From Gimesia chilikensis (lineage in GTDB: Bacteria > Planctomycetota > Planctomycetia > Planctomycetales > Planctomycetaceae): a stretch of 64,000 nt of DNA. The stretch's first letter is position 1. Each line of letters opens with the position of its first letter. A model generated the notes under the pieces. That model did not search any database, was not told the origin of the DNA, and was given only the letters and a program-made list of their open reading frames with translations. The stretch lies in the NCBI RefSeq assembly GCF_007744075.1, contig NZ_CP036266.1, positions 5,813,748-5,877,747 of the forward strand. The letters run 5' to 3'. The position numbers were made by a program, and so were the translations under genes. Below are positions 40,737-53,313 of the stretch, one piece after another.

Positions 40737-42677
40737 TTACTCGGTCCATTCCAGGTAGGGATCAAGGCCCATTTTATGAAACATCTCGATACGGAACTTT
40801 TCCTGCTTGAGCATATCACGCCGCTGTTTGCGATGCAGCTTTTCGAGGAAGTCCTGCGTCTTCTTGAAAAACGAAATCCAGCCGGGTGACAGTTCGCCTC
40901 GTTCATCGGCTTTCGCAGAACGGATGATCTGATTCAGCTGGTTCAATTCCAGACAGCGGAGCAGTTCATCCTCGAGAGAGAGGAAGAACTGATAATGCCC
41001 AGGGTCACCTTGACGAGCAGAACGACCGATTAACTGACGGTCGATACGGGCCGAGGTATGCATTTCCGTAGCGATCACATGCAGACCGCCATTTTCGCGA
41101 ACGATATCTTTGAGCAGGATGTCGGTCCCCCGCCCGGCCATGTTGGTGGCGATCGTCACGCGGGCAGGTTCGCCCGCTTTTTTGACGATCTCAGCTTCCT
41201 GTTCGTGATACTTGGCATTCAGAATCTGATGCGGAATCGCCTTCATCGCCAGCAGATCTCCCAGTTCTTCGGAGGCTTCCACCGAGGGGGTTCCGACCAG
41301 AATGGAACAACGTTTTTGACGCAGTCGTTCGATTTCTTCGACCACCGCCATCCGCTTGGCCTGCAGTGTTTTGAAGACGCGGGGAGGACTTCCTTTCCGC
41401 AGACAGGGGCGATGGGTGGGGATCGATGTCACTGAGACTTTGTAGGTTTTTCGAATCTCCCGTTCTGCCAGGGCTGCGGTTCCAGTCATCCCAGCCAGGT
41501 GGGCGTAGTTCTGGAAGAAGCTCTGCACAGTAATCCGCGCTGCCTGACCTGTGGCTGCGGTAATTGGAACATGTTCCTGAGCTTCGATGGACTGATGCAA
41601 CCCGTCCTGCCATTTACGGCCTTCCATCATACGGCCCGTAGATTCATCGACGATGACCACTTCATCATTCACGACCACGTAATCGCGATCTTTCAGAAAG
41701 CCGAAGCGGGCGATCAGCGACTGTTCGACCTGTTTGTAGATGCGTTCGGTGTCGATCGAATCCAGCAGCGAAGGCTTGGGCATCAGCAATACTTTGCGAC
41801 AACCCTGATCAGTCAGATAAGCAGACCGTTTTTTGGGCTCGTAAACGTAATCGACTTCAGATTCCAGTTGATGCGTGGCCCGGTTGCTCCAGCGGAAGAG
41901 GTTTACGGAAGCCGCATCGTTGGGCTGAATCAGACCGATAATCAGCGGTGTCCGGGCTTCATCGATCAGCACACTGTCTGCTTCGTCAATCAGGGCGAAG
42001 TAATTTCCCCGCTGAACCAGTGGTTCCTTGCCCGAAGATTTGTGATTAGAAATGGCCTGCTCTAACTGCCCCGGGGCACTGGCTCCAATGCGAATGCGAT
42101 CCCTGAGAAAGTCAAAGCCCATTTCATTGGCGGTGCCGTAGGTGACATCGAGACCGTAGGCAATGCGTCGATCTTCGTCTTCCATATCAGAGGTGATACA
42201 ACCAACGGATAATCCGAGTTTATTGAAAACAGGTCCCATCAGCTCTGAGTCACGTTTCGCCAGGTAATCGTTGACGGTCACCACATGACAGCCCTTGCCC
42301 ATTAGCGCTCGCAAATAAGCGGGGAGCACTGCTGTCAGCGTTTTTCCTTCCCCGGTCTGCATCTCGGCGATGCCCCCTTCAAAGAGCGCGATTCCCCCCA
42401 TTAGCTGTACAGGGAAATGGGCCATTTTCAGGGTTCGCCAGGCCGATTCCCGTACCAGGGCATACGCCTCGGGCATGATTCTCTTGAGTGGCTCACCCGA
42501 CTTGGCGCGCCAGCGCAATTCCAGAGAATAGCGTTCGAGCTCGTCATCAGTCACTGTCTTCAACGCTTCCCCACGCTTAATAATCTGATTAGCCTGGGCG
42601 CGCCAGCGGGAGAGCCGGGATTTAGCAGGGCGAAATCCGGTTTTCATCCAATGATAGCTGTGCGAAGAGATGCTCAA
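40737..42677 (-). CDS. Shortened SecA-like translocase ATPase
   Basis: Paralogue of the SecA preprotein translocase motor, 646 residues against 800-900 for usual SecA. Retained: the motor start GGIALFEGGIAEMQTGEGKT (Walker A at about 105-113), CHVVTVNDYLAKRD, the DEAD-box IDEADSVLIDEARTPL (about 228-245), the preprotein-crosslinking part with VDESTGRMMEGRKW, MTGTAALAEREI, and the second motor domain with NMAGRGTDILL and IGRSARQGDPGHYQFFLS. After this only about 85 residues follow, so most of the scaffold/helical-wing region and the C-terminal zinc finger are missing. It is divergent from the LEDRTLLS giant genes, 650 nt away. It may be an accessory motor; no SecY or SecE gene is nearby. Confidence 0.9.
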   Translation of the reverse strand: MSISSHSYHWMKTGFRPAKSRLSRWRAQANQIIKRGEALKTVTDDELERYSLELRWRAKSGEPLKRIMPEAYALVRESAWRTLKMAHFPVQLMGGIALFEGGIAEMQTGEGKTLTAVLPAYLRALMGKGCHVVTVNDYLAKRDSELMGPVFNKLGLSVGCITSDMEDEDRRIAYGLDVTYGTANEMGFDFLRDRIRIGASAPGQLEQAISNHKSSGKEPLVQRGNYFALIDEADSVLIDEARTPLIIGLIQPNDAASVNLFRWSNRATHQLESEVDYVYEPKKRSAYLTDQGCRKVLLMPKPSLLDSIDTERIYKQVEQSLIARFGFLKDRDYVVVNDEVVIVDESTGRMMEGRKWQDGLHQSIEAQEHVPITAATGQAARITVQSFFQNYAHLAGMTGTAALAEREIRKTYKVSVTSIPTHRPCLRKGSPPRVFKTLQAKRMAVVEEIERLRQKRCSILVGTPSVEASEELGDLLAMKAIPHQILNAKYHEQEAEIVKKAGEPARVTIATNMAGRGTDILLKDIVRENGGLHVIATEMHTSARIDRQLIGRSARQGDPGHYQFFLSLEDELLRCLELNQLNQIIRSAKADERGELSPGWISFFKKTQDFLEKLHRKQRRDMLKQEKFRIEMFHKMGLDPYLEWTE

Positions 42678-43331: not shown

Positions 43332-46300
43332 ATGATCTCAAAATTGATTGATAATCTGTGGAGACCACGCCGACACCAGCACCATCGTCGGCTCAAAAAA
43401 ACAACGGCTCCACTGGCAGCAACTGAGAAGCTGGAAGACCGGACCCTGCTCAGTGGTCAGGACCTGATCGCGTTTGGACAGGCTTTAGCTGCAGCGAACG
43501 TCACTCTGTATGGTGCAGTCTGGGATGCCGATACGACAGCACAAAAAGCGTTGCTGGGTGATGGCGCGACTTATATTAATTTTGTCGACATTACAGACAA
43601 CGAACGCAATCTGAATGGCAGTGCTGCTGACGTGGGTATCAGCGATGTACAGGACCTGCGCCCCATCTGGAGACTGAACAACGGTACGTTAATCGAAGGC
43701 AGTTCCATTAACAGTCTGCAGGATCTGGCAACGGCAACTGGAATCGCGATCACGAATTCGGAAGGTCCTTATCTCAAAGACATTCCCACTCAAAATCTGT
43801 TTGCCAATACCGGCCTGCATGTTGCCCTGGATGGATTCGATCCCGACGGCGGACCATTGACGTACACGATAGAGAGTAGCAATCCGAATGTCTCCGCACG
43901 CTTACTGACTGGAAATCGCAGTTTGCGCATCAACGTCGCAGGCTATGGGGAGATGATTTTTGAACTGTTCGAGGGGAGAGCTTCCCGCGCTACCGACCGG
44001 ATCATTCAGCTCGCACAGGAAGGCTTCTACGATGGTGTCAGCTTCCACCGGATCATCAATGATGCCATCATTCAGGGGGGAGATCCCACTGGAACCGGCG
44101 CTGGCGGTTCTACCTATGGTTCATTCGACGATCAGTTTCATCCCGAATTACAACACGTGCAATCCGGCCTGCTCTCGATGGCCAAAGCACAAGACGACAC
44201 CAATAACTCCCAGTTCTTCATCACGGATCGCCCGCTTCGCAGACTCGACTATCAACACACTATTTTCGGTTTCCTGACCGAAGGCGACGATGTTCGCAAT
44301 GCCATCAACGATGTGAAAGTGATCAATACGGACGATCCGCTTTTTAATATCACCATGGACAGCGTGGAAGTCTTTTCTGACTTTGAAAATGCCACGCTCT
44401 TCTTAAATGCTGCCGAAGGTTATAGCGGTTCATCCACGATCACGGTGACCGTCACCGACCAGGATGGAAATCAGCAGCAGCGACAGTTCCAGGTCAATGT
44501 GGCACCGGATACGATCGACCCTCCCTATCAGGACCAGGTCACCGGCAACATTATTTTTGATGCTTCAGATGCCAACCCTTACCTGGCAGATATTCCCACT
44601 CTGCAAGTCAGGGCCGGAGAATCCATTCAGTACCAGTTGCAGGCCATCGACGTCGATGCGACGGCTCCCAACAACGGGGTCCCAGTCTATATGAATCAGG
44701 ATCTCCTCTCTGATTATGGTTTGTACATTCCGGTTACGGCCCCTGCGGGACTGATTAATACCATTGACCTGAACAACCAGGGAATCCTGACGATCAGCCC
44801 CAATGCCGGGCTGGCACCAGGCATCTACCAGTTAACCGTGGCAGTTGGATTTCAGACCAGTGCGATTGACTACCAGGTCGTGACGGTCGTAGTGACCGAA
44901 CCTCCCGTTGCCAACAACGATTTTGTCGCCCTGCAGGGAGATACTCCCGCGTCGTTCGATATCTTCGCGAATGATACAGACAGTGATGGCAGCATCGATG
45001 AACAATCCGCGGAAATCATCTCTCAGCCCACACATGGTACTGTTACGCTGGTGCAGGTTGGCGAAGATGATTACGAAATTCAGTATACGGCAGACGGCTC
45101 TGGTTACATGGGTCTCGACTCCTTTACCTATCGAGTCGCAGACAACCTGGGCGCCTACTCGAATGTCGCTACCGTACAGTTTTCGATTGCCCCCGAGGGA
45201 GTGATTCTGGTCACCAATCTGACCGATACTTCTCCCAATAACCGGGTGACTTTACGCAGAGCGATTCAGGCAGCCAATTCAGACACGAGCATCGGTGTCG
45301 CCCCCGCGGGGAATGGCGCAGACATCATCATGTTCGACCCTGCTCTGTTCAATGGCACTGCAAAAACACTGATTATTTCTCAAGACCTTGAGATCACAGA
45401 CTCGCTCACAATCATCGCTCCGACTTCTGCAGAAGGGGCTCCGCTACTGACTATCGACGCATATCAGAATGATCGGCACTTCCTGATCGATGACGGTCTG
45501 GAAAGCGATCTTGTAGTGAGACTGGAAAACCTGAAACTGACCAAGGGTAATCTCGGCGATAACGGGGCATCAATCTTTAACGCCGAAAACCTGGTGATCA
45601 CAAATAGCGAAATCACCAATAACCAAAGTACCTCCGGACTGGGCGGTGCCATCTACAATACGGGACATCTGGAAGTCTATGACACCCTGTTCCAGTCCAA
45701 TCTTTCTCTCTACTCTTCTGGAGGGGCGATCGTCAGTCAGTCTGGTACTGTAATTTTGAATGGAAGTACGGTGAACCAGAATACCGCAGAGGGATTTGGA
45801 GGCGGTATCTATGCCATCAATTCCGATGTCACGCTGATTAACAGCACGCTATCGACAAATGTCAGCGCAAGCGGAGGGGGAGGCGGCCTCTATCAGAACG
45901 GTGGTACTCTGACGATCAACGGATCGCTCATCACCGACAACACCACTGGAGCCGCCACCGATGGTGCAGGGCTCTACCTCTTCGATCTCACAACCACAAT
46001 TACCGATTCCACCTTTTACCTGAACCGCAGCTCTGGTTCCGGGGCCGCCATCAGACAGTCAGACGGATCGCTGACCGTTCGCAGCAGTACGTTTTATGAC
46101 AACTCGGCACTGTTTGGGGACGGGGGAGCAATCTCATCAGGAGCCCTGACAACATTGCTGGTCAACATCACCCTGTCCGGGAATACAGCCAGCAGCAGCG
46201 GTGGGGGCATCTACTTCTCCAATCCGGTTGATTTCGACAGTGCCATTATCAGCAACAGCACCATAGCGAATAATACCGCAAACCAGGATGGAGGCGGCCT

Positions 46301-47957
46301 CTTTTCCTCGTTCGATGTAATTACGCTGAACAACACAATTGTTGCCGACAACTCTGCTTCCAGTTCAGGCGATGACATCAGTGGCTACGTGAACGGGTCT
46401 TACAGCCTGGTGGAATCGACGTCTGGATTTACCAATCAGGGATCGAATTTTATCACCGGCCAGGACCCCGAACTGCTGCCCCTCGCCGATAACGGTGGTT
46501 CCACTCTGACTCATGCATTGACGACAACCAGTGTCGCCATCGATGCTGGTAATCCCGCCTTTGATCCCAGTGCGTTTACTCCCGAACTGACTCTGGATCA
46601 GCGTGGTTCTGCCCGTGTTGCCGACGGTAATAACGATACCATCAGCCGCGTTGATATCGGAGCCTATGAGGCAGAATCAGTTCTCGCTTCAGCAGACATG
46701 ACCGTGAAATGGAAAGCCACCAGTACTGGTAGCGAAGGGCAAGTCGGCTCCCTGCCAGCCAACGTGGATTTCCTGGACGAGTTCAGTCCGGTCACCGTCG
46801 AGATCTGGGTGAGCATTACTAATTCCACTCAAAATGGCGTTGCATCAGCTGCCGTAGACTTCAGCTTTGATGCGACTTATCTGACAGTAGAATCAATCGT
46901 ATACGGCGCCGGATTTACTCAAAACCAGACCGGGGCCATCGACAATGAAAACGGGACCATCACCGGCCTGGGGGCTTCCAGCGAATTGTCTGCTTTGGGA
47001 GCAGAAACTCTCGTGCTACTGGCGCGTGTGAACCTGTCCGTCAAACCGATCGACCTCAACGCCGACGGGCAGTACATGCAGCCTGTGGGCAATGTGGACT
47101 TTGAGATTTCGAACAGTGTCATTAACTCTGCTGTCGGAGCCGCAATGGTGACGGAAGGTGCAGCGGTGAATCTGACTCTGGTCCCAGCGCTCTACGACCT
47201 GAATGACAGTGGCAAGATTGATTTTGGAGACCTGCTTCTATTCGTTTCTGTCTACAATAAAACCACCGGTGCTCAAGGAGCGGACGCCACCTGGGCCTCC
47301 GACTTTGACCGTTCAGGTAAAGTCGATTTCAAAGACCTCACCCTGCTGGCTGCCAATTACAATAAGGTAAAAGGGGGCAGCAGTTCCTTTGTCTATCCGA
47401 CCAACTTCAGTGAAGTCTGGCAACAAAACAACCTGGTCACCGCAATCATCAATTCAGAAAATGACAACACGCAACCATTGACCAGTGAAGAGGCCGCGCC
47501 GGTCCTCGAAGCTGCGAAACAACAGGTCGCCGCCAGTTCTGATGAGATTACCATTGAACAGCTCAATGACGTCAAACTGGAGATAGTCGAACTGCCGGGA
47601 AATCAGCTGGCCAAAGCTGACTCTTCCACCAATACAATCTACCTGGATGTTAACGCCGCAGGCTGGGGCTGGTTCGTCGACAGCTCGCCATTCTCGAATA
47701 GCGAGTTCGATGCCACCGAAGACCCCAGAATCTTCTCAGCGGGCCTCCTGAGTGCTGCCAGCGGTCAGATCGACCTGCTGACCGTTCTGTTGCACGAGCT
47801 CAACCACCTGCTGGGACACGAACATAACTCTGATGCCCCCATCATGGAGCCAGTTCTGGAAACAGGTGAACGCAGACTGCTGGATTACGGGAACTCAGAA
47901 GCCACCGATGAATTTTTCGGAAGTTATCTGGATCCTGAATTCGGGGGGATTATCTAA
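43332..47957 (+). CDS. Giant secreted protein: cyclophilin, beta-helix, dockerin-like, metzincin
   Basis: 1541 residues. The basic N-terminus with LEDRTLLS at 34-41 is the export-type motif of many planctomycete giants. Domains in order: an Ig/cadherin-like region; a cyclophilin peptidyl-prolyl isomerase domain (about 195-335) with FHRII (238 on), IQGGDPTGTG and SQFFITD; a VCBS/cadherin-like repeat (about 525-620); right-handed beta-helix repeats with many small 'GGAIYN' turns (about 640-1120), ending in an IDAGNP/QRGSAR segment; a dockerin-like Ca2+ pair (1288-1346: YDLNDSGKIDFGDL, DFDRSGKVDFKDL); and a C-terminal HELNHLLGHEH (1488-1498) with IMEP Met-turn, typical of metzincin zinc proteases. 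It could be an adhesive surface protein with folding and proteolytic activities. The prime start is ATG 43332. Confidence 0.9.
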   Translation: MISKLIDNLWRPRRHQHHRRLKKTTAPLAATEKLEDRTLLSGQDLIAFGQALAAANVTLYGAVWDADTTAQKALLGDGATYINFVDITDNERNLNGSAADVGISDVQDLRPIWRLNNGTLIEGSSINSLQDLATATGIAITNSEGPYLKDIPTQNLFANTGLHVALDGFDPDGGPLTYTIESSNPNVSARLLTGNRSLRINVAGYGEMIFELFEGRASRATDRIIQLAQEGFYDGVSFHRIINDAIIQGGDPTGTGAGGSTYGSFDDQFHPELQHVQSGLLSMAKAQDDTNNSQFFITDRPLRRLDYQHTIFGFLTEGDDVRNAINDVKVINTDDPLFNITMDSVEVFSDFENATLFLNAAEGYSGSSTITVTVTDQDGNQQQRQFQVNVAPDTIDPPYQDQVTGNIIFDASDANPYLADIPTLQVRAGESIQYQLQAIDVDATAPNNGVPVYMNQDLLSDYGLYIPVTAPAGLINTIDLNNQGILTISPNAGLAPGIYQLTVAVGFQTSAIDYQVVTVVVTEPPVANNDFVALQGDTPASFDIFANDTDSDGSIDEQSAEIISQPTHGTVTLVQVGEDDYEIQYTADGSGYMGLDSFTYRVADNLGAYSNVATVQFSIAPEGVILVTNLTDTSPNNRVTLRRAIQAANSDTSIGVAPAGNGADIIMFDPALFNGTAKTLIISQDLEITDSLTIIAPTSAEGAPLLTIDAYQNDRHFLIDDGLESDLVVRLENLKLTKGNLGDNGASIFNAENLVITNSEITNNQSTSGLGGAIYNTGHLEVYDTLFQSNLSLYSSGGAIVSQSGTVILNGSTVNQNTAEGFGGGIYAINSDVTLINSTLSTNVSASGGGGGLYQNGGTLTINGSLITDNTTGAATDGAGLYLFDLTTTITDSTFYLNRSSGSGAAIRQSDGSLTVRSSTFYDNSALFGDGGAISSGALTTLLVNITLSGNTASSSGGGIYFSNPVDFDSAIISNSTIANNTANQDGGGLFSSFDVITLNNTIVADNSASSSGDDISGYVNGSYSLVESTSGFTNQGSNFITGQDPELLPLADNGGSTLTHALTTTSVAIDAGNPAFDPSAFTPELTLDQRGSARVADGNNDTISRVDIGAYEAESVLASADMTVKWKATSTGSEGQVGSLPANVDFLDEFSPVTVEIWVSITNSTQNGVASAAVDFSFDATYLTVESIVYGAGFTQNQTGAIDNENGTITGLGASSELSALGAETLVLLARVNLSVKPIDLNADGQYMQPVGNVDFEISNSVINSAVGAAMVTEGAAVNLTLVPALYDLNDSGKIDFGDLLLFVSVYNKTTGAQGADATWASDFDRSGKVDFKDLTLLAANYNKVKGGSSSFVYPTNFSEVWQQNNLVTAIINSENDNTQPLTSEEAAPVLEAAKQQVAASSDEITIEQLNDVKLEIVELPGNQLAKADSSTNTIYLDVNAAGWGWFVDSSPFSNSEFDATEDPRIFSAGLLSAASGQIDLLTVLLHELNHLLGHEHNSDAPIMEPVLETGERRLLDYGNSEATDEFFGSYLDPEFGGII

Positions 47958-48348: not shown

Positions 48349-51300
48349 ATGCAAATGATGTTTATGAGAACTAAACGTCGTCACCAGCCTGGTCGAATTG
48401 GTTCATTTCTTCAACGTTTACGTAGAGGTCGTGCTCGACGTTTGAAGAATCTACGACTGAACGCAACAGTCCACTCCTATTCGACCGTAGAAAATCTGGA
48501 AGACAGAACACTCCTGTCGGCTGTTAATTCACTCATCGATCCCAACGTCTATGATTCTCCCGCCGATTTCAATCCTGATGATTACGGCACCGGAATCAAC
48601 AACTCACCCAACCGGGGTTTGACCAACCAGACGCAGTCGCAACAGCGATCACAGGCCACTGTGACTGAGGAGGACAAACAGAAACAGGAAAATGACCTGG
48701 GCCAGGTAGACGCTCCCAGCAATCCCTCTCAGTTTTCTGTCAATGAGGGAGAAACCATCGGCACGACTGGGACCAATGACGATATTGGTTCAGCCCAGTT
48801 GATCTCCGGCCTGGGTACAGGTATTGACGATGAGTATGACGCCGATATTAAAGGCTATCTCGCTAACGCCACTGTAAACACATTCCGGTCACCATTTCCC
48901 GAAGATGATGGCTCCATTCTGCTGGCCAACGATTTGGGGATCCTCCCTGGACAACAGATTTCGATTTTCAACGCTCAACTGGGTGATGGCCCTCATGGAA
49001 GTGCTGGAACCGGCACAGGTGACTTCGACTTCTATCAGATTAGTGGTGTTCAGGCGGGCGACCGACTCTCAGTCTCTGTGAGAGACTCCACTCAGTTCTT
49101 CAACCTGGATCCCATTGTGGCGATCTATACCAGTTCCGGATTCCAGGTTGCGTATGATGACGATGGTGGTACTTCCCTCGACAGTTTGCTGGAATACACG
49201 GCAACACTCGATGGTGATTACTACATCATGGTCTCCAGCTTCTATACAGGCACTCCGAATGATCCTTTCGATGAAACCAGTGGAAATGGTGCTGGAACTA
49301 ACTCGCGGGCCGAAGGGGCTTACGATCTGACAGTCGGTCTGAACATACAGGATGTGGATTACTTTGCAGTCGAACTGGAAGCAGGCGACATTCTGGGAGC
49401 CAACGTAACCGGCGCAGCCCAGACGGTTTCCATGTATGGCCCCAGTGGCGGTCTGATTCAGCAGTCGTCTTTCTACCTGTCAGATCTTTACCCTGCTGAC
49501 AGTCCCCTGCCCGGCGATGGTAACGCCGCGGCCTCCTTCGTGGCTCCAGTAGCCGGAACTTATTATGTGGGGATAACGGGTGATGTCGGGCTCTATGATC
49601 TCCAGTTGCGAGTTTTCCGTCCCGAGTTGGAAACCCAGATGCCCGGCGCTATCCAGACACTGTACATCGATTTTGATGGGGCAGAAGTCGATCCTTCCAT
49701 CTTTGACAGTTTCCAGGCTTCACGTACTGCTACCATGTCCCCCTTAAGCTCGTTCCTGGGGAACTGGGGGCTCACCGCTGCTGATGAGGAAGCGGTCATC
49801 CGGGCTATTATGGCCACTGTGGAAGAGAATTTTGCTGACCTCGCATCGGCCAACAATGGTGATTTTGCTACCACCAACAATCCGGGTGACTACGGAATTC
49901 GCATCTTAAACAGTTTTGATAACCCCGGTCTCGACGAAACCAATACCCCGAATCTCAGCCGTGTGATTGTCGGGGGAACGATCAACGAACTGGGTATCGG
50001 TACCATCGGTATCGCTGAGTCGATCGATGTTGGTAACTTTGATACAACTGAATCGGCTGTCGTGCTTCTGGACCTGCTCAGCAGCACGAACCCGGCAGAC
50101 CCCAACTCATTGAATAATATCGTCCGTAACTTTACCTCCAGTATTGTCGATTTGATTGGTGTCGCTGTCGGTAATATTGTGACTCACGAAGCAGGTCACT
50201 TCTTCGGCCTGTGGCACACCTTGAATTACGTTTCACCATCACAAATTATTGACCAGGGTGGCAATCTCGCCAACACAATCGGACTTGGCAACGATAATTT
50301 CTTCGGTACCGGTGACGATATTGATGTCGATTTCAATGTGGGTTTCCTGAATGACTTCCTGGGAACTCAGGACAGCCCCAACACACTGGCCTTTGGCCTG
50401 TCTACAGGAGCGTTCTACGGTATTGATTACGGCGATGCTCCTGCCCCCTACCCCACACTGGAAGCAGACGATGGTGCTCGCCATGACCTCGCAGGCGGCT
50501 TAACACTGGGCGCTTCCATCGACTTTGAAGACGATGGTCTGCCCAGCCTGGATGCTTCCGGTGACGGTGCAGACGACGATGGCATTGTCTTCCTCGATCC
50601 CAACGGAAATATCACCAACGGCATTTCCATCAGCGATAACATTGCCACTGTCGAAGTAACCGTCAACGGTGCTGGTTATCTCCAGGGCTGGATCGATTTC
50701 AATGGCAACGGTGCCTGGGAAGCCAGCGAGCAGATCTTCACAGACGAGTTCCTCACTGCAGGCACCCACCAGTTGTCCTTCAGTGTCCCTCAGGGCGTGG
50801 GTGAATTCGTGATTGGCGAAACATTCGCACGCTTCCGTTTCAGTACACAGACCGGACTGGGTGTAACCGGTTATGCTCCTGACGGGGAAGTCGAAGACTA
50901 TCGACTCGAACTGACGGCTTCCCGTTACGGAACGATCGTCTTTGATGACGCTACCTACGACTCAGGTGATCTGATCACAATCACTGTCACCGATGGCGAT
51001 CTGCTGGGAGCAGGTACAGTCGATGTGACTGTCACATCAACCGGCGGTGACCAGGAAAACGTCACTTTGACAGAAGTCGGTTTCGGAACCTTCACAGGCA
51101 CGATCAACTCTTCACCGGGCACACTGGTTGTCGGTGACGGCATTCTGCAGGTCGTCTTTGGTGAAACAATCACCGCGGCTTATGCTGACGCTGACACAGG
51201 AGAAGGTCAACCCGGTAACTACCTGGGTGACTTCGTCTCCACCAACCTGAACAGTCCGCGTGATCTGGTCTTCGGCCCCGATGGCGATCTCTACGTCAGT

Positions 51301-53313
51301 AACGGCTTTGAAGGCTCAGACGGATCCGATCATACGGTCGAGCGGTTCGATGGCCAGACAGGTGAGTCCCTCGGCTCCTTTGTGATCCCTGGCTCAGGTG
51401 GCATCGACGTTCCCAACGGTCTGGTATTCGGACCGGATGGAAACCTTTATGTCGCCAGTTCTGATACAGGACAGATTCTGCGATACGACGGCCAGACCGG
51501 TTCGATTATTGGCTCAGGTGTCTTCGCTTCCGGTGGTGGTCTGGTTCAACCCCGCTTCATTACCTTCGGTCCTGGTTCCGCACCTGGTATCCCCGACCTC
51601 TATGTTGCCGACACCGGCTTCCTGCGTGATCGAATTTTACGCTATGACGGTCTGACGGGCGCATTCATCGAAGAATACGTTGCCCGCAGTGAAGGTGGCA
51701 TGGGCAAACCCTATGGCATGGCCTTCGACAGCAGCGGAAATCTGTATGTCGCCAGCTTCAATACCAATGAGATTCTGAAGTTCGATTCCAATGGAGACCC
51801 AGTTCTCGGCGGCCCATTCATTGCTGCTGGAACAGGTGGGCTCGCAAACCCACGCGGGATTACAATTGGTCCGGACGGACTCCTGTATGTCGCCAACGGT
51901 GCCACCGAAAGCATTCTGCGATTTGATCCCAACACGGGTGCATTCGTTGATAATTACACCTTCAACGCCACCATCCAGTTGCCTTACGGCCTCACCTTCG
52001 GACCGGATGACAACCTTTATGTGGTTGATACCGACCTGGGTAAAGTCCTGAAATTCGCTGGTCCATTCGGTACCTCAACAGCACGTGTGATTACAGACAC
52101 GGCTCTGATCGTTGCCAGCAACGGCGTCGATTACGGTGATGCTCCCGCTTCATTCCCGGTACTCGATGCCGAAAATGGTGCCAAGCATGCAATCAATAAC
52201 TACACGAACCTCTATCTCGGTGCCGGCGTCACTGCTGAAGCCGATGGACAGGAATCTGCGACAGCGAGCCTGGACACTGATGACGGCATCCTGCTCAACC
52301 CGATTATTGCCGGTGATACTTCTACATCGATCACCATCATCTCATCCGGGACAGGCTTTATGGATGCCTGGATCGACTTCAATGGGGATGGCGACTGGGA
52401 CGATCCAGGTGAGCAGATTCTCTCCAGCCAGGCAGTTGTTGCTGGTGCTAATTCTGTTTCCATTGCAGTCCCTCTGGGTGTGACTGTCGGTGATGTTGCA
52501 GCCCGCTTCCGCTTAAGTTCGGCTGGTGGATTATCGACCACGGGTGCAGCAGCGGACGGGGAAGTCGAAGACTACCTGGTCACGGTCGTGCCGCAAGGTT
52601 TCACCGGCCTGCTGCCCGATCCGAACCGACCTGGAAAGTCAGCTCTGTTCATCACTGGTACTCAGGCAAATGATATCATTCTGCTCTCGCAGACCTACCA
52701 GACCAATATCGTTCAGGTTCGCCTGAATGGCGTCAACCTGGGTGAGTTCGCTCCCACGGGTGGCGTTTATGTCTGGGGCCTGGGCGGAGATGACCAGATT
52801 ATTGCCGACGACACCTTCTACAACCGCGAATCAATGTTCTTCGGCGGACTGGGTAACGACTACCTCGTCGGCGGCTGGGGCAACGATGTTCTGATCGGTG
52901 GTGCAGGTAACGATACCATCGAAGGTGGCCCTGACGGCTATGACATCCTGATCGGTGGCCTGGGTTCTGACTTTCTGCGTGGGCATAACGAAGCTCTCTA
53001 CACCGACTATGGTCAGAATGGTGACATCCTGATTGGTGGAGCAACAGTCTATGACAATGGCCTGGCACAACTGTTTGCGATCTACCAGGAATGGATTTCT
53101 GCCGATCCGTTTGGAGACCGGGTTGCCAGCATCAGTACTCGCGTTGATAACGCATCCCTGGGCGTAAATAACGTTCGCCTGGATGATACGACTGTCTTTG
53201 ACGACGGCGAACTGGACCAGCTCTACGGTGCCGTGGCCCGTGGTGATGACTGGTTCCTGCTTGATCTCGGTTACGATATCAACAACGCCGGTGCTCACGA
53301 TGTCCGGCAGTAA
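48349..53313 (+). CDS. Giant secreted protein: PPC, metzincin-like, GEVED, NHL, RTX-like
   Basis: 1654 residues. Basic N-terminus with LEDRTLLS at 50-57. Then an acidic linker; a pre-peptidase C-terminal-like beta domain (about 225-330, [19 protein letters not shown]) and a second similar part; a protease-like region with [11 protein letters not shown] (613-623), the HExxHxxGxxH zinc motif, where the expected Met-turn reads IID; two GEVED domains (about 690-856 and 1264-1415) ending DGEVEDY; NHL/SMP-type beta-propeller repeats (about 963-1242) of the form [13 protein letters not shown]; and RTX-like Ca2+-binding nonapeptides (about 1494-1548, [11 protein letters not shown]). It probably sits on the cell surface or is released. 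It is followed by a strong terminator. Confidence 0.9.

Follow-up and report, generated by a model that had tools for sequence, protein, structure and literature searches.

The systems closest to the locus described here are the planctosome, the products of planctomycete giant genes, the cyclophilins and the matrixins. The planctosome hypothesis proposes non-cellulosomal cohesin-dockerin complexes with M12B and M14 peptidases in freshwater Planctomycetes, in which cohesin-dockerin contacts bind the metallopeptidases to anchoring and adaptor proteins that are separate chains (PMC6461901). It is the nearest published idea: cohesin, dockerin and zinc peptidase modules are there proposed to act jointly outside the cell. 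In the present case, by contrast, a cohesin-like domain, a dockerin and a metzincin lie on one chain, and the combination is repeated on about ten proteins of a single genome. Giant-gene proteins of Stieleria varia carry cadherin, tandem-95 and matrixin annotations, one protein of 6858 aa being annotated Matrixin (PMC7717043), and giant genes have also been counted in Gimesia (PMC7716864); neither of these two papers mentions a prolyl isomerase. Such proteins are likewise long and β-rich with cadherin-like domains, whereas the protein considered here, at 1541 aa, is shorter, and an explicit cassette forms its C terminus. Cyclophilins (PF00160; human PPIL1, PPIL2 and CypA) have the same fold as the domain described below, which shares their R55, Q63, Q111, F113 and H126. 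Unlike the known cyclophilins, it sits inside an Ig-like domain that belongs to a long protein, and the site has been lost in half of the genus. Matrixins (peptidase family M10) share HExxHxxGxxH and the Met-turn, and karilysin is the nearest solved structure by profile; in contrast to other M10 members, the domain found here is C-terminal, lies behind a dockerin and is followed by a conserved tail.

The window analysed is a stretch of 64,000 nucleotides from the genome of Gimesia chilikensis (8.29 Mb, one contig). A single open reading frame with an ATG start (43332..47957; this and all features below lie on the + strand unless stated otherwise) encodes a 1541-aa protein that is probably exported. 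In the family sample, each of the 11 genomes of the genus contains a full-length ortholog. The domain order given by Pfam and NCBIfam is cyclophilin, Big_9, POMP/choice-of-anchor Q β-helix, cohesin-like, dockerin and matrixin. A first-pass annotation had placed a cyclophilin and a metzincin signature on one adhesin-like chain, and the single frame and the profile matches bear this out. The β-helix and the dockerin-like Ca2+ loops that it described correspond to Chlam_PMP and choice_anch_Q matches and to two loops bearing D/N ligands. It made no mention of a cohesin-like domain, of the LEDRTLLS leader, of the Ig-like nesting or of the F60A and W121R changes. An assembly error or chance fusion was considered and rejected: the same architecture occurs in independent complete genomes, in one reading frame.

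The LEDRTLLS motif (aa 34-41, 43431..43454), which we take to resemble the LEPR-XLL leader, is found near the N terminus of most paralogs that carry the same cassette. An NCBIfam scan of three N termini at E values up to 10 gave no match to any model, and secretion, which rests on the architecture and this leader motif, is probable. The Ig-like domain that houses the cyclophilin is followed by a second, uninterrupted Big_9 domain (aa 523-616, 44898..45179, Pfam E 6.1e-12) and by a right-handed β-helix of POMP/choice-of-anchor Q repeats (aa 640-1115, 45249..46676, matched by Pfam Chlam_PMP and NCBIfam choice_anch_Q). With this composition, the product is probably a surface or matrix protein.

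The cyclophilin (aa 199-347, 43926..44372) matches PF00160 (Pro_isomerase) with 121.5 bits against a cut-off of 21.7 (E 5.1e-35). An AlphaFold2 (AF2) model of aa 136-410, built from 46 sequences, reaches pLDDT 91.5 and pTM 0.88 and places strands before and after the cyclophilin; every match listed by Foldseek against the PDB is a cyclophilin (best E 3.8e-16; TM, normalized by target length, up to 0.93). The strands belong to a Big_9/cadherin-like host domain, whose N-terminal half spans aa 146-198 (43767..43925) and whose C-terminal half spans aa 348-393 (44373..44510). Taken separately, the N-terminal half has no match to any domain and the C-terminal half scores 20.6 bits (cut-off 23.6); joined without the cyclophilin, the two halves give a Big_9 match of 27.3 bits in one alignment that spans the junction. 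Profile matches and model agree in placing the cyclophilin inside a Big_9/cadherin-like (Ig-like) domain.

Among the best 80 loci, dozens of proteins from Planctomycetota show the nested arrangement, most of them about 580-1880 aa long; judged by the aligned range, one Lentisphaeria protein shows it too. Planctomycete loci align over the cyclophilin and its flanks, whereas in most other phyla the matches span the cyclophilin alone; one weak locus was matched in viral contigs. The pairing with a protease had been called unusual, and it is: a metzincin signature occurs in 0 of about 75 other planctomycete nested-cyclophilin proteins, some of whose reading frames end at locus ends. In the open-licence literature searched, we found no description of a planctomycete fusion of a cyclophilin with cadherin or dockerin domains, and no report of a nested cyclophilin or of the loss of its catalytic residues.

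The active site of the window copy is intermediate. FHRII begins at aa 238, so that the equivalent of Arg55 is aa 240, as had been noted from the letters, and SQFFITD begins at aa 293. The active-site string RAIQGAKAQFRLH (R55, F60, M61, Q63, A101, F113, W121, L122, H126) retains the equivalents of R55, Q63, A101, F113, L122 and H126, as well as Q111, and carries the changes F60A, M61I and W121R. Single changes of F60 or W121 in human CypA lower activity and do not abolish it. With the equivalents of both F60 and W121 gone, the window copy may retain weak activity. Among its closest relatives, the window cyclophilin is under purifying selection (dN/dS about 0.04-0.05); because this constraint coincides with conserved Arg55 and His126 equivalents, the domain may still be an active isomerase, which would count against the reading favoured below.

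Across 89 sequences the active site is well conserved: Arg55 is present in 81, Phe60 in 77, Gln63 in 82, Phe113 in 82 and His126 in 81. Most of the exceptions are Gimesia orthologs, and outside Gimesia the site is nearly always intact. The nested domain is present in 15 of 17 Gimesia genomes, and the core active-site residues are kept in 7 of these 15 orthologs and lost in 8, the remaining fold being conserved. In the columns whose conservation outside Gimesia reaches 85% or more, the degraded orthologs retain 22 of 77 active-site cells (29%) vs. 246 of 301 others (82%), and the intact orthologs 66 of 77 (86%) vs. 287 of 301 (95%); one sequence that ends at a contig end (L090) was scored on its remaining active-site positions. 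For the degraded set, the difference between active-site and other cells gives a Fisher p of 2e-18, the cells being phylogenetically non-independent. Insertions of at least 4 residues after the equivalent of CypA 101-103 occur in degraded copies only. A further nested cyclophilin with a degraded site (QVSLGARGQFQIR) and an LEDRTLL leader is seen in another genus of the same family (L017, genome G054).

The well-supported branches of the protein tree force 3 active-site changes. A tree of the cyclophilin only needs 2, with six degraded copies weakly grouped (84/90). The site thus appears to have been lost in at least two or three Gimesia lineages, and because the six degraded copies group weakly, exchange of the domain between members of the genus may account for some of these seemingly independent losses. 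The stand-alone cyclophilin served as a control: its 13-residue active-site string is the same in 12 of 12 Gimesia genomes. A genus-wide trend to loss of cyclophilin sites was rejected, the stand-alone copy being unchanged. Pairs of orthologs diverge unevenly along the chain. The intact pair L010 and L036 is 97.3% identical in the cyclophilin vs. 59-94% in other parts, whereas the window copy and the degraded L009 share 61.1% identity in the cyclophilin, vs. 91.5 and 89.1% in the two Ig halves on either side of it.

The C-terminal cassette begins with a cohesin-like domain (aa 1127-1283, 46710..47180). Pfam Cohesin matches aa 1155-1213 of the whole protein with 24.9 bits and the sub-region with 29.1 bits (cut-off 24.1), covering only positions 15-76 of the 139 in the profile, and 6 of 10 paralogous copies are matched. 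A type I dockerin (47193..47351) follows, with duplicated F-hand Ca2+ loops, DLNDSGKIDFGD and DFDRSGKVDFKD, both with D/N ligands. Dockerin_1 scores 18.1 bits on aa 1288-1340 in the whole protein and 22.8 in the sub-region against a cut-off of 22.9, and a dockerin profile run against the PDB finds cellulosomal dockerins (best E 7e-4). Both domains are predicted from scores that lie close to the cut-off.

The matrixin-like (metzincin) domain (47418..47867) contains the zinc-binding motif HELNHLLGHEH (from aa 1488, 47793..47825) and the Met-turn IMEP (from aa 1504, 47841..47852). It is followed by a conserved tail (TGERRL ... TDEFFG ..., 47862..47954) recognized in paralog and ortholog alignments; most copies show the ending PG.R...D.FF after the Met-turn. 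Peptidase_M10 matches aa 1447-1512 with 21.9 bits in the whole protein and 27.2 in the isolated domain (cut-off 24). The profile matches 17 of 17 metzincin copies at E 0.1 or better, and a profile built from these 17 copies finds karilysin (E 4e-6). The first-pass annotation had suggested a domain search for all three modules: Pro_isomerase scores above its cut-off, Peptidase_M10 does so as an isolated domain only, and Dockerin_1 falls just short. Likewise, of the two enzyme folds that it assumed, the cyclophilin is borne out by its model, whereas the AF2 model of the cassette, made from four sequences only, has a pLDDT of 43.9 and the metzincin fold rests on the profile matches. The HExxHxxGxxH motif is complete in 14 of 14 orthologs read, and the Met-turn methionine is absent from three (L010, L036 and L037). 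Searched across the phylum, the metzincin is matched strongly in Gimesia and in a small number of further genomes; the many weak matches fall mostly on the zinc-motif region and are read as general zincins.

The cassette is widely reused within the genome. A 415-aa query that starts at the cohesin-like domain and reaches the C terminus matches the genome at 16 further places. Nine of them carry the whole cassette, and their HExxHxxGxxH lies 50-63 residues before the C terminus; 2 have only a matrixin-like end, in which Asp is the third ligand, 3 have a different end with HEIGH, and 2 are without the motif. Near their N termini the nine whole-cassette paralogs carry LEDRTLL (7), LEDRRLL (1) or LEERTLL (1). 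Their N-terminal parts differ, those of the four that were scanned consisting of β-helices or DUF5650 repeats. The metzincin is thus part of a standard ending that this genome uses on ten long proteins, and not a dedicated partner of the isomerase. Two cassette proteins of the genome (L138 and L139) are made up of ten or more DUF5650 repeats. In three very long frames (L142, L143 and L144, 4363-5835 aa), the cohesin-dockerin region is followed by another C terminus, in which HEIGH lies about 235 residues before the end; all three share the ending FxxWxGPxx.

The surroundings of the gene are conserved. A short SecA-like ATPase of 646 aa is encoded upstream (40737..42677, - strand) and divergently transcribed, and downstream lies the gene for a 1654-aa protein (48349..53313) with an LEDRTLLS leader, GEVED, NHL and RTX-type repeats and a Reprolysin_4-like motif; neighbourhood comparison shows both to be syntenic. 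The order short SecA-like gene, 1541-aa gene, second LEDRTLLS gene and dus is kept in those Gimesia loci that are long enough, and the gene for the 1654-aa protein adjoins that for the 1541-aa protein in every Gimesia locus examined. Of the four SecA-type genes in the genome, three are short (frames of 628-675 aa), the full-length SecA being a 1188-aa frame; the other two short ones lie at C1:8093771-8094943 and C1:5588006-5589169 (G000). The short SecA-like gene of the window, conserved in position, is among the best-conserved genes of the region (88-99% identity). A link between it and the export of surface proteins is only a guess.

The interpretation we favour, with slightly better than even confidence, takes the protein as modular and located at the surface or in the matrix. 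Its nested cyclophilin would be shifting from an enzyme to a module for binding or structure, on a chain that ends in a widely shared anchoring and processing cassette. A β-rich shaft of Ig/cadherin-like domains and β-helix would bear the cyclophilin, inserted in one of the Ig-like domains, as a projecting side domain, and the cohesin-like and dockerin domains would assemble the protein with others like it, possibly in a calcium-dependent manner. In most Planctomycetota the nested cyclophilin, its catalytic site kept, probably acts on or binds proline-containing stretches of extracellular partners. In Gimesia catalysis would have become dispensable, the pocket being repeatedly lost and filled by insertions; because the scaffold stayed throughout, the lasting job of the domain in this genus would be binding or structure. 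The metzincin most likely takes part in the maturation, release or turnover of the cassette-bearing proteins, and would not act in concert with the cyclophilin.

Plain relaxed selection would instead make the Gimesia cyclophilin a functionless insert in passive decay. Divergence of the domain is indeed raised in the degraded lineages, but an unconstrained insert should lose its scaffold too, whereas these copies keep 82% of the conserved columns outside the active site, every copy has an open frame and no ortholog read has lost the domain; decay of this kind is unlikely. The first-pass annotation had suggested that a prolyl isomerase and a protease on a secreted scaffold might fold or process neighbouring surface proteins, taken here as joint action by two active enzymes. 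R55, Q63, Q111, F113 and H126 are kept in the window copy and the gene of another large LEDRTLLS protein is always adjacent, as such a role might lead one to expect. However, isomerase residues are lost in 8 of 15 Gimesia orthologs while HExxH is kept wherever it was read, the metzincin is part of a separate cassette shared with nine proteins that are otherwise unlike this one, and nested cyclophilins outside Gimesia are without its signature, so that we regard the joint role as still less probable than passive decay. The concentration of changes in the pocket, where the insertions vary in length, would also fit diversifying selection on an exposed surface that serves in recognition, directed for instance at phages or grazers. 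Here dS is saturated in several ortholog pairs and the divergence precludes site-wise dN/dS, and this account seems to us the least probable of all.

The favoured shift from enzyme to binding or structural module can be carried further. In Gimesia the embedded enzyme may be turning into a variable recognition module, in which inserted loops replace the pocket lineage by lineage on a constant fold, with the cassette assembling and trimming a set of surface proteins; this extension is speculative, and we would put it no higher than passive decay. To our knowledge, no sorting route has been established for the large surface proteins of Gimesia, and the shared C-terminal cassette may explain how they are assembled or trimmed. 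The part most worth following is the cyclophilin: one genus offers, at one gene position, a natural series of active-site loss with the fold kept and the stand-alone cyclophilin as control, and this series permits asking what a non-catalysing cyclophilin is for.
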